NCBI GenBank assembly: GCA_000531095.1
Contig: HG799463.1
Location: forward strand, 246,671 to 310,670
Length of the DNA: 64,000 nt
Source of the DNA: Gemmata massiliana
GTDB taxonomy: Bacteria; Planctomycetota; Planctomycetia; Gemmatales; Gemmataceae
Direction of reading: 5' to 3'
The notes under the pieces were generated by a model. The model was given only the letters and a program-made list of their open reading frames with translations. It was not told the DNA's origin and searched no databases. This document shows, piece by piece, positions 5,394 to 44,468 of the stretch. Position numbers and translations under genes: made by a program. How positions within the stretch are numbered: position 1 is the stretch's first letter; every line of letters begins with the position of its first letter.

Positions 5394-5661
5394 AAGAGCC
5401 GCGGATCACGCAGATAACGCGGATCAAAACAAAAGACGGGAACGGAATTTAAGCCCCGATAGGGGCGTAGGCGAGTAGCCCAGGGTGGAGCAACGCGCAA
5501 CCCTGGGCGGGGTTGTCGTCGGGAGCGCGCCGTCTCAGAACACCGGGGTTTGCGGGAGCCCGCCAGGGGTTGCGCTCGCCTGCGCCCCTATCGGGGCTTA
5601 AATCCGGCCTTCTGATCTCTTTCGTGTCTGATCCGCGTTATCTGCGTGATCCGCGGCTCTT
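5394..5661. repeat. Composite nested inverted-repeat element, copy 1
   Basis: The outer arms are 33-base perfect inverted repeats (5394-5426 and 5629-5661). Inside are 26-base arms with one mismatch (5450-5475 and 5575-5600). The centre holds a module at about 5477-5508 that recurs almost exactly at 7445-7477. No coding sequence is visible. The element fills the gap between the amidohydrolase start and the oxidoreductase stop. It looks like a non-autonomous repeat or a large folded intergenic RNA. Confidence 0.75.
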
Positions 5662-5688
5662 CTTTTCGGCTTTTCTCCCCGACTTCGC

Positions 5689-7140
5689 CTACACCTTGTC
5701 CGGCACGGTGAACGGCGCGCGGTACTTTCGCGTCAGGAGCGCGTTGGCTTCCGAGTCCTTGGAGAACGTTTCGGTCTTCGCGTCGAAGTCGAGTTTGCGG
5801 CCGGCGAAGAAGTTCTTGCCGTCGAACTTGATCCCGCTGTCCTTGAGGTGCTCGGCCATGCGTTCCAGCGCGTCTGTGCCGGACTCGTTACCCACAATCT
5901 TGCCGAGCTTCGGGTCGTAGCTCGATGCTTTACCCAGGCGGTAGCTGATGTTCCCCAGGTGGCACAGGCCGGCGGAGACGTGCCCCACTTCGATGTCCGC
6001 GTGGAGCTTCGCGGTGTCGCGGCTGCGAACGCAGTCGATGAAGTTCGTGAAGTGGTCCCCGCCGAGTTTCACGTCCGACGCCACCTTCGGGATCGGCTGC
6101 CCCTCGTCCTTCCCCTTCGGGTAGAACTTGGTGCCCGCGACGACGCCCTCCTCGAAGTGCAGAATGTTCCCAACCGTCTGCCCCCGGAACGCCGGCGACT
6201 TCAGCCCGCGCGTCTCGAAGATCAGTTGCGTTTCGCCATAATCGAATACGCTCACGAGTGCGTTGGGCGTTTCGGCCTGGTCGTTGTTCGCGTAGCGCCC
6301 GCCGAAGCTGACGACCGACTTCGGCCACGTCGCGCCGGGAATGAGCCAGCGGGCCTTGTCCATCTCGTGAACGCCCTGGTTCCCCGCGTCGCCGTTGCCG
6401 AACGCCCAGAACCAGTGCCAGCGGTAGTGGACGAGGTTCTCGTGGTACAGTTGCTCCTGCGCCGGCCCGAGCCAGATGTTGAAATCGAGGTCCGCGGGCG
6501 GGGCCTTTGTGGGCTTGGTGCCGATGTCGCCGCGGGTGCTCCCCCCGGTCCCACCGTCCTTGTAACACAGCCCGCGCGACACGAGCAGCTTGCCGAGTTT
6601 CCCGGACTTGGCAAGCGCCGCGAGGTCGGCCCATCCCTGCGAACTGCGGTTCTGAGTACCGTGCTGGACGACCCGCTTGTGCTTGCGGGCCATTTCGACC
6701 GCGATCCGGCCCTCGTGGATGTTGTGCGAACACGGTTTCTCGACGTAGACGTCCTTGCCCGCTTCGCACGCCCAGATGGTCATCAGCGCGTGCCAGTGAT
6801 TCGGCGTGGCAATGGAAACGGCGTTGAGGTCTTTGTCTTCCAGGGCTTTGCGAACGTCCTGAAGGCACGGCGCGGCGGGGCGCTCCTTGCGGGCAATTTG
6901 GTCCAGGCGCTTCTGGTAAGTGCGCTTGTCCGGGTCCACGAGGTACGCAATCTCGACGTTCTTCATGCCAAGATAAGCACCGACGTGCGACTCGCCGCGC
7001 CCGTTCAGGCCCGCGACCGCGATCCGGATGCGGTCGTTTGCTCCCATCACGCGGGCGGACGATTTCGTCCCGGCGATGGTGATGGTAGCGGCCGTGGCGA
7101 GCGACGTTTGAAGGAACCTTCGGCGCGAAACGCGAGTCAT
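5689..7140 (-). CDS. Gfo/Idh/MocA-family oxidoreductase with Tat signal
   Basis: A 483-residue NAD(P)-dependent oxidoreductase. The N-terminus has a twin-arginine signal (VSRRRFLQTSLATAATITIAG), pointing to export of the folded protein to the periplasm, as is common for this family in planctomycetes. The Rossmann fold begins at RIRIAVAGLNGRGESH. The family motif EKP is in DVYVEKPCSHNIHEG. A middle segment with NIWLGPAQ, RWHWFWAFGNGDAGNQGVHEMD and SFGGRYANND is typical of the planctomycete subgroup. The ATG at 7140 directly precedes the Tat signal; an upstream extension to 7287 is low complexity and rejected. It is monocistronic and flanked by composite repeats on both sides. The substrate, probably a sugar, is unknown. 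Confidence 0.88.
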   Translation of the reverse strand: MTRVSRRRFLQTSLATAATITIAGTKSSARVMGANDRIRIAVAGLNGRGESHVGAYLGMKNVEIAYLVDPDKRTYQKRLDQIARKERPAAPCLQDVRKALEDKDLNAVSIATPNHWHALMTIWACEAGKDVYVEKPCSHNIHEGRIAVEMARKHKRVVQHGTQNRSSQGWADLAALAKSGKLGKLLVSRGLCYKDGGTGGSTRGDIGTKPTKAPPADLDFNIWLGPAQEQLYHENLVHYRWHWFWAFGNGDAGNQGVHEMDKARWLIPGATWPKSVVSFGGRYANNDQAETPNALVSVFDYGETQLIFETRGLKSPAFRGQTVGNILHFEEGVVAGTKFYPKGKDEGQPIPKVASDVKLGGDHFTNFIDCVRSRDTAKLHADIEVGHVSAGLCHLGNISYRLGKASSYDPKLGKIVGNESGTDALERMAEHLKDSGIKFDGKNFFAGRKLDFDAKTETFSKDSEANALLTRKYRAPFTVPDKV

Positions 7141-7240
7141 GGATTGGCTCCGGCAGCGTGGTGGGAGGGGCGGGTACGATGAACCATACCCGCCGCTCGC
7201 GCCCGGAGCAAACGCGATCTTCACAGGTTGAGAGGCACGG

Positions 7241-7530
7241 ATTGGCCACAAAAAGGCACAAAGGGCACAAAAGAAAACAGAAAGCAAAGCGCAAGTTTGG
7301 CTTTAGCCCCGTAGGGGCGTAGGCGAGTAGCCAGGGGTGAAGCGAGCCACGCGAGCGCAACCCCTGGCGGGCTCCCACAAACCCGATGTTGAGGCAGCGC
7401 GCGCATCGCGGCAGTGCTCTCATCGTGGCATCGTGGCAGAGCGTAGCCCAGGGTGGAGCAACGCGCAACCCTGGGCTACGCTCTGCCGCCCCTACGGGGC
7501 TAAAACCCTTCGTGCCTTTTTGTGGCCAAT
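7241..7530. repeat. Composite nested inverted-repeat element, copy 2
   Basis: The outer arms are 19-base perfect inverted repeats (7241-7259 and 7512-7530). Inside are 17-base perfect arms (7302-7318 and 7488-7504), then an 18-base perfect hairpin (7437-7454 and 7468-7485). Its core module matches copy 1 at 5477-5508. The 7545-7580 stretch just outside repeats part of the outer arm of copy 1. The whole 7141-7690 gap is this element plus flanks; no gene is visible. Confidence 0.75.
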
Positions 7531-7690
7531 TCGCCTTCTTGCTCTGATCGGCGTGATCCGCGTTATCTGCGGTTCATTTTCACTCTTTGCCAGCCCACAA
7601 AAACCGTTTGCGAGCGATTCCCGTTTCGGGTAAACTTCTGACACCTACCGAACGGTCCGGCCCTCCTCCCAACTCCCCCCGGAGTTTCAC

Positions 7691-21477: not shown

Positions 21478-21626
21478 GCGAACCCCGCCCACCAGGGCGG
21501 TGGGTCTTGCACGTAGCAAATGCACCCACCGCCCTGGCGAGCGGGGTTCGCTCAATCACTAATTTGGTTCGGTGGCCCGGGCCTCTGGCCTGGGAAACGC
21601 CTCCCCAGGCCAGAGGCCCGGGCCAC
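21478..21626. terminator. Two long hairpins between convergent genes
   Basis: The first inverted repeat has arms at about 21478-21505 and 21523-21551, with small internal mismatches. The second has 23-base perfect arms (21572-21594 and 21604-21626). They lie between the GH2 stop (21466) and the dadA-like stop (21659) and probably terminate both. The second stem has the same core as the hairpin at 3637-3684. Confidence 0.65.
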
Positions 21627-44392: not shown

Positions 44393-44468
44393 CTTCACCA
44401 GTCCGTAAAGACGCGCGGTTCGCCAGGAAATTTCCTGGCGAACCGCGCGTCTTTACGGACTGGTGAAG
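44393..44468. terminator. 76-base perfect palindrome between convergent ftsH and thioredoxin-like gene
   Basis: Arms 44393-44430 and 44431-44468 are perfect 38-base reverse complements with no loop. The site starts 5 bases after the ftsH stop and ends 6 bases before the thioredoxin-like stop, so it should fold in both transcripts as a bidirectional terminator. The inner AAATTT gives the hairpin tip. Confidence 0.85.

Follow-up and report, generated by a model that had tools for sequence, protein, structure and literature searches.

REPs (repetitive extragenic palindromes) tagged with GTAG have been described in the PVC group by Di Nocera 2013 (PMC3733652), a paper which, in its accessible portion, reports their organisation as dimers, their association with a transposase and their preference for the 3′ ends of genes. 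The same source places REPs inside palindromes in A. variabilis, T. roseum and H. neapolitanus, with unoccupied target palindromes being common in T. roseum and none found in A. variabilis and H. neapolitanus; REP dimers within palindromes are thus already known since 2013. In the REPINs of Bertels and Rainey 2011 (PMC3116915), an inverted REP doublet forms a non-autonomous unit which is served by a transposase, the RAYT, in trans. The Y1 transposases (TnpA) of subclass 1.2, as characterised in the available sections of Quentin 2018 (PMC6006769), have a Y---Q--HH motif, an IS200-like core and a low copy number, occur mostly in Cyanobacteria and Bacteroidetes, and are generally devoid of typical terminal IS200 structures. 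Y1 enzymes of the IS200/IS605 family act on single strands with hairpin ends (PMC8266576, in the part available). Finally, the family Acido-Lenti-1 (RF01687) is entered by Weinberg 2010 (PMC2864571) as a probable RNA of Acidobacteria and Lentisphaerae, and excerpts of a 2026 paper (PMC13298647) state that little is known of it and suggest gene regulation.

Two nested inverted repeats of Gemmata massiliana, here called elements A and B, resemble the GTAG REPs and REPtrons of PMC3733652 in their GTAG tag, their hairpin, their inverted dimers, their intergenic location, their occurrence at gene 3′ ends and the possession of a Y1 gene flanked by the repeats. In contrast to what the accessible text of that paper describes, their unit contains a second small hairpin (M2), the targets form a separate family of 9-bp words, and an empty site is available from related species. 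With the REPINs (PMC3116915, as far as the text is available) they share the inverted doublet as the unit, the non-autonomy and the presumed supply of the transposase in trans; however, the transposase carries the Y-x3-Q-x2-HH motif of subclass 1.2 and not that of the TnpAREP classes. This enzyme in turn agrees with subclass 1.2 in motif, core and low copy number, but differs from the account available in PMC6006769 in that it is found here in planctomycetes and others, has flanking hairpin repeats and is accompanied by dispersed copies in the genome. A and B are probably intergenic elements of two layers, i.e., a mobile, non-autonomous REP dimer driven by a Y1 enzyme inside an older palindrome of 9-bp words, and they look nested because one palindrome sits inside another.

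Both elements were found in the window, by which the whole stretch of 64,000 nt analysed is meant (C2:246671-310670 of G000, the 9.27-Mb genome of G. massiliana in 22 contigs). Element A extends over window positions 5394-5661 and element B over 7238-7533, and the following features can be distinguished:

5394-5426, + strand: outer left arm of A, word of 9-bp period CCGCGGATCACGCAGATAACGCGGATCA, older palindrome; 100% complementary to 5629-5661, 68 genome copies
5452-5467, + strand: small hairpin module M2 of A, AGCCCCGATAGGGGCG, like the module beside the Y1 transposase gene
5475-5508, + strand: GTAG-tagged REP hairpin of A, identical to 7443-7476
5560-5575, − strand: truncated inverted REP of A, half hairpin CCGCCAGGGGTTGCGC (inverted match, read by eye)
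5583-5598, − strand: inverted M2 hairpin of A (sequence match)
5629-5661, − strand: outer right arm of A, partner of 5394-5426; palindrome kept at the orthologous site in the genomes G008, G012 and G015
5689-7140, − strand: Gfo/Idh/MocA oxidoreductase gene (PF01408 and PF19051) between A and B, a bystander
7238-7265, + strand: outer left arm of B, word GGCCACAAAAAGGCACAAAGGG; 93% complementary to 7506-7533, matches at other loci
7305-7319, + strand: M2 hairpin of B, AGCCCCGTAGGGGCG, inside an inverted-repeat arm (by eye)
7327-7368, + strand: left GTAG-tagged REP hairpin of B (by eye; pattern match C2:253997)
7443-7479, − strand: right REP of B, symmetric, GTAG at both ends (inverted match, pattern match)
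7447-7501, + strand: match to Rfam RF01687, Acido-Lenti-1 (REP hairpin, GGCTA, spacer, M2 hairpin), 41.6 bits, gathering threshold 37
7487-7501, − strand: inverted M2 hairpin of B (by eye, sequence match)
7506-7533, − strand: outer right arm of B (inverted-repeat comparison)
7545-7571, − strand: extra CGCGGAT word outside B (C2:254215, 3 mismatches; repeat match D1)

The nested long inverted repeats which a preliminary description had reported at both places are present. When the arms were re-measured, the outer pair of A had the 33 nt given there, whereas its inner pair (5447-5475/5575-5603), given as 26 bases, is 29 nt long and 97% complementary; a hairpin of A lies at 5478-5508. In B, the outer arms comprise 28 nt and the inner arms (7435-7459/7463-7487) 25 nt at 92%. 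The common central module, previously put at about 32 bases, comprises 34 nt; a search of the window for its 31-nt core, with up to 3 mismatches allowed, gave two matches, in contrast to none in 100 shuffles. A second stretch common to A and B, in inverted orientation, has 37 nt at 95% (5546-5582/7348-7384). The right-hand REP of A lacks, by eye, both its distal stem and its GTAG. Folding energies lie far beyond those of shuffled sequences (z -16.5 for A folded as RNA, z -10.9 for B folded as DNA), but these extremes are due to the arms and do not demonstrate an RNA.

With respect to the distribution of such units, blast comparisons within the genome gave 97 matches for A and 82 for B, the elements themselves being included and many places being counted on both strands. 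A unit consists of the small hairpin AGCCCCG(n)GGGGCG (M2), GTAG and an imperfect hairpin, and is found inverted on the other side, the whole making up a REP dimer of the REPIN/BIME type: GTAG stands at the foot of the imperfect hairpin, and the inverted doublets are dispersed and extragenic. The pattern of the tagged stem, GTAGCCNRGGGTGRAGC, was matched 94 times in G000 at up to one mismatch, in contrast to 4 times by a reversed control (128 vs 66 at up to two mismatches), and 74 of the 94 were exact among the matches listed. In the fetched stretches, which had been selected for holding pattern matches, there were 99 matches, of which 12 were dropped for want of the partner stem. The remaining 87 GTAG-tagged units occupy 58 sites and make up 23 pairs with GTAG outside, five pairs with GTAG inside, one of these being the flanks of the transposase gene, and 31 single units; the number of the latter, together with the truncated right unit of A, shows many copies to be relics. 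Classification was possible for 57 sites, all of them intergenic (21 in convergent, 32 in tandem and 4 in divergent gaps), the remaining one being at a contig edge, with the gene calls coming from a home-made, codon-usage-based caller which is imperfect and missed the 150-residue Y1 gene itself. Of the intergenic bases in the window, 9% are in convergent and 36% in divergent gaps. Paired units agree better in their flanks within an element than between elements, both over the 30 nt before GTAG (0.825 vs 0.720, 0 of 10,000 permutations) and over the outer 80 nt (0.502 vs 0.438, 148 of 10,000 permutations), a result in keeping with dimers spreading as units or with mutual correction of the arms.

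The oxidoreductase gene, which is neighboured by an amidohydrolase gene (PF07969) on one side and by a gene for a DUF1501 protein (PF07394) on the other, indeed lies between A and B as first noted. However, this bracketing is incidental, because there are 58 such sites round the genome, all of those classified being intergenic, and because A and B are not close copies. That A and B arose together by a recent duplication was rejected, as their similarity ranks only 459th among 1653 site pairs with the common parts masked, and 1193rd unmasked. As a lead only, the two most similar pairs of private spacers among the 1653 each belong to neighbouring sites inverted relative to each other, at distances of 3.4 and 5.4 kb, which might point to local copying; the third most similar pair consists of the transposase's own flanks, the other five near pairs are unremarkable, and overall P is 0.04.

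The profile PF01797 detects three Y1 genes in G000. The one at C2:811037-811486 (93.6 bits, cut-off 23) codes for an IS200/IS605-like protein (NF033573, 70.8 bits, cut-off 55) whose motif YIANQEEHH fits the Y---Q--HH of subclass 1.2; the system would be REPIN-like in its working, yet its transposase is not of the RAYT/TnpAREP type. By eye, an M2-GTAG-REP unit stands inverted against both ends of this gene, with some twelve bases between it and the start or stop (units at C2:810985 and C2:811524, locus L061). Here M2 adjoins the gene, while in A and B it is outermost. Two matches to the transposase were found in G000, and relatives of the protein in the PDB are 2fyx, 2vhg/2vjv and 2xm3, the last being ISDra2. 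A second Y1 gene, on contig C6, is flanked, as judged by eye, by another type of hairpin, CCCAGGGCGTTGCCCTGGG.

Among the named relatives of the transposase of C2:811037-811486, the best three come from Gemmataceae MAGs. Flanks could be tested for 75 of 80 named loci with at least 200 nt on both sides, five having been dropped for short flanks; with 61 distal pairs as control, a flanking inverted repeat exceeds the control maximum at 52 of the 75, and the Y-x3-Q-x2-HH motif is present at 70 of them. A control that looks stricter, made of cross-paired flanks and covering 45 of the 80 loci, was exceeded at its maximum by 11 of 45 and at its 95% point by 34 of 45, but this control is inflated because hairpins are common to several loci. 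In a set of 95 genomes of the family, the transposase was detected in 54 (at E 1e-15). Genomes with the enzyme have higher REP counts (medians 3.5 vs 1.0, Mann-Whitney P 2.8e-5), and the control maximum is exceeded in 25 genomes, 22 of them with the transposase, in contrast to 32 with it among the other 70 (Fisher P 3e-4); both P values are optimistic because the genomes are related. The 32 transposase-bearing genomes (of 54) that stay at or below the control maximum for this REP type may use another one. Conversely, three of the 25 REP-rich genomes lack the transposase (G007, G008 and G101), and the counts in G008 (21 pattern matches, 8 of them exact) would fit a REP family decaying after loss of the enzyme.

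RF01687, which matches half of B, has a consensus made up of a hairpin, GGCUA, a spacer and a small hairpin; read as its reverse complement, this corresponds to M2-spacer-GTAGCC-REP. In an Rfam scan of 60 transposase loci (40 of the 80 named relatives and 20 of 30 loci from the family set), RF01687 was the sole family at its gathering threshold, and 33 of its 37 matches lie within 250 nt of the gene, a zone holding 14.9% of the bases. There are two pairs of duplicate loci (L124/L205 and L126/L208), and the count without L208 is 30 of 34. A match within this distance was found at 17 of the 60 loci, at nine of them on both sides, and none was found there at the other 43; the matches come from planctomycete, verrucomicrobial and acidobacterial records. 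At the genome level, where up to 57 candidates were scored per genome, at least five matches are present in 41 of the 54 family genomes with the transposase vs 8 of the 41 without it, and none of 14 control genomes was positive. G000 has 22 matches at E 0.001. Its commonest REP did not score against RF01687 at any of 20 of its own loci, neither at gathering nor at E 0.5, and of 13 further G000 loci only L237 scored. Other Rfam candidates were rejected, namely symR in the window (26.4 bits vs a cut-off of 61) and RRE and two microRNA matches in G000 loci, none of which reached the cut-off and which were ascribed to long hairpins fitting by chance. The Acido-Lenti-1 family is probably a transposition end: while listed in PMC2864571 as a probable RNA, it appears here as the end of Y1-associated elements. 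No link between Acido-Lenti-1 and a transposase was found in the accessible portions of the literature located by the name of RF01687.

The outer layer has a distribution of its own. The 9-bp-period word of the outer arm of A, CGCGGATNACGCAGATNACGCGGATCA, has its 68 copies in G000 at up to 3 mismatches vs none for a reversed control, and 28 of them have a REP unit no more than 300 bp away, with a chance of 0.45% each. Some of the other 40 stand, by eye, beside a decayed unit, e.g., at L259. Of 25 words located 5′ of a unit, 18 are 38-55 nt from GTAG, so that word and dimer might at times have been copied together. A phylum-wide family of words was rejected, with matches in only 18 of 392 genomes and more than five only in G000 (68) and G149 (62), in a draw that contained no further genome of G000's family. 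Searching the literature for six word strings as printed gave no result.

Comparisons between species are informative for site A. In G008 and G012, whose oxidoreductases are 98% and 97% identical to that of G000, the outer palindrome is kept and the REP dimer is absent, and in G015 (86%) there is a perfect palindrome of changed sequence, again without the dimer. The simplest reading of these comparisons is that the dimer was inserted at A in the lineage of G000; as far as the sequences compared can tell it, the order of events shown is that of palindrome first and REP dimer second. At the position of the loop, G012 has a nested palindrome of a CACAAA word. Among five further congeners, read by eye, G004 and G007 have other palindromes at A, G001 has another unit of the M2-GTAGCC type, and G009 and G016 have no long palindrome. 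The edges of the insertion in comparison with the relatives are not clean by eye, and the target duplication that was looked for at A is not evident. The other copies in the genome, the relatives lacking the inner part at A and a matching transposase locus lend good support to the earlier suggestion of a mobile non-autonomous family. Neither of the two outcomes named beforehand as speaking against it, a lack of further copies and a lack of any structural signal, was obtained.

At B, G012 has a REP dimer with a different M2 and G008 only a remnant. When four more sites, taken from two stretches picked for having two REP sites each, were read by eye in G008 and G012, the six sites gave 12 comparisons, 8 of them without REP, 3 with a decayed remnant (B and C4:951363 in G008, C11:146068 in G012) and 1, B in G012, with a full dimer. 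All 12 show some palindrome by eye, several being of unrelated family, and no excision or transposition product was seen among the sites compared. In G008, the site C4:951363 is a rearrangement breakpoint, where homology ends at the repeat and is followed by DNA which in G000 is located next to the transposase gene (by eye); for a role as recombination substrate, which had also been considered, this is the one example.

In the mechanism proposed, the inner layer would be a non-autonomous single-strand transposon, consisting of an inverted pair of GTAG-tagged REPs with M2 before each and a variable spacer. The Y1 transposase would recognise the hairpins in single-stranded DNA, cut near the foot at GTAG and move the dimer; from the arrangement of the sequences we infer that the dimers are mobilised by this enzyme. 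The outer layer is an older palindrome of 9-bp-period words, a kind also found without REPs, the loop of which received the dimer, as the comparison at A shows, possibly because it is exposed as single strand or because it tolerates insertion. The wider proposition, namely that RF01687 is primarily the ssDNA end of a REP system of subclass 1.2 Y1 enzymes in planctomycetes, verrucomicrobia and acidobacteria and that, in addition, dimers land in the loops of gene-end palindromes, with gene ends swapping palindrome families while usually keeping one, is advanced only tentatively, both halves together having somewhat less than an even chance of holding.

Of the alternatives, one that is rather doubtful sees the elements as devices at the RNA level, i.e., as two-way terminators or stabilisers of mRNA 3′ ends, with gene ends keeping some palindrome whatever its sequence. 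The excess of REP sites in convergent gaps, the scarcity of divergent ones and the purely intergenic location speak for it, as does the palindrome of some kind in every one of the 12 comparisons. In addition, REP-free gaps of 40-900 nt, as delimited by the home-made gene caller, contain a strong palindrome in 6 of 11 cases when convergent, in 10 of 51 when tandem and in 2 of 22 when divergent (convergent vs divergent, P 0.008). Palindromes thus favour gene 3′ ends, which fits termination or mere tolerance alike. However, B itself resides in a divergent gap, the more distant congeners G009 and G016 lack a long palindrome at A by eye, even though G016 has the same neighbour gene, and insertion into tolerant places gives the same distribution; moreover, a mobile element may also terminate transcription. 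The large RNA structures of the preliminary description are possible, given the strong folds and the clustering at gene 3′ ends, but would presuppose transcription.

Improbable is the notion that the outer arms and the inner dimer transpose as a single unit and that sites with words only are deletion products. While the narrow spacing of 18 of the 25 5′-side words from GTAG, with similar sequence in between by eye, would agree with it, the dimer-less state at A is common to three relatives, some REP dimers have no words (by eye), and, again by eye, the position of the loop is taken in G012 by a palindrome of a different word. Quite improbable as well is that template switching during replication makes palindromes and keeps them perfect with no need of a transposase: the arms at A do change and yet match (GATCACGC/GCGTGATC in G000 vs GATTACGC/GCGTAATC in G008, by eye), and those of G015, of other sequence, are perfect too (by eye), but the arms of G012 match imperfectly on inspection, and 58 dispersed sites with one REP sequence as well as the flanks of the transposase would be left unexplained, though such switching may act atop transposition. 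Ordinary MITEs of a DDE-type transposon with terminal inverted repeats, which the long inverted arms and the dispersed copies might recall, are extremely unlikely in view of the unclear edges at A with no evident target duplication, of the Y1/HUH nature of the transposase gene carrying these repeats, and of the GTAG tag with its paired hairpins.

For the two-layer reading of a REP dimer within an older palindrome, the apparently new elements are the identity of Acido-Lenti-1, the association of the repeats with subclass 1.2 in planctomycetes and the empty site at species level, none of which was found in the literature searched; for repetitive extragenic elements in Gemmata no literature was found, and for nested palindromes only unrelated work. 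A catalogued RNA of unknown function thereby gains a mechanistic reading, and a transposase subclass described as generally without terminal hairpins is now attached to a repeat family. The natural empty site at A gives an order of events, from the palindrome to the REP dimer, and it has become testable whether gene ends in these bacteria retain a palindrome of exchangeable sequence.

Among 1653 pairs of REP sites (GTAG-tagged hairpins) in the G. massiliana genome, the highest similarity of private spacers is found in two pairs of neighbours, C4:951363 and C4:954723 (L285), lying 3.4 kb apart, and C11:146068 and C11:151451 (L284), lying 5.4 kb apart. In both pairs, the private spacers are common to the two sites and stand in inverted orientation, hinting at short-range inverted copying. 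In the related genome G008, the homologue of the C4:951363 site is found in two halves about 119 kb apart (L321, G008:C1:1402700, and L320, G008:C1:1283350), one of which abuts DNA that in G. massiliana flanks the Y1 transposase gene at C2:811, a gene for which a genome search of G008 gave no match. This split is likely to be the result of a repeat-mediated rearrangement.

With respect to palindromes in the window, two adjacent long ones of unlike sequence (GCGAACCCCGCCC..., then GTGGCCCGGGCCTCTGGCCTGG...) lie at 21478-21626 between convergent genes, and the former resembles by eye the palindrome of the related genome G012 at the C11:151451 site. A perfect, loopless palindrome of 76 nt (CTTCACCAGTCCGTAAAGACGCGCGGTTCGCCAGGAAA followed by TTTCC...) occupies positions 44393-44468 in a short gap, likewise between convergent genes, and has the top palindrome score of the 11 REP-free convergent gaps examined.

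The 9-bp-period word of the outer arms of element A (5394-5661) has 62 matches in G149, a distant genome of 12.3 Mb from the phylum-wide search, where its own version, CGCGGATTACGCGGATTACGCGGAT, predominates among the matches listed.

In the congener G001 (L102, contig C53), the site orthologous to element A, on the downstream side of the oxidoreductase gene, carries by eye an M2-GTAGCC-hairpin unit of another kind (M2 being a small GC hairpin), which suggests that this site was struck by another REP type. Finally, G. massiliana has a second Y1 transposase gene, in locus L062 (G000:C6:504287-507616), of the same motif type as that at C2:811. It is flanked by a hairpin repeat, CCCAGGGCGTTGCCCTGGG, which by eye is unlike the repeat of the C2:811 gene, suggesting a second transposase/repeat pair in this genome.
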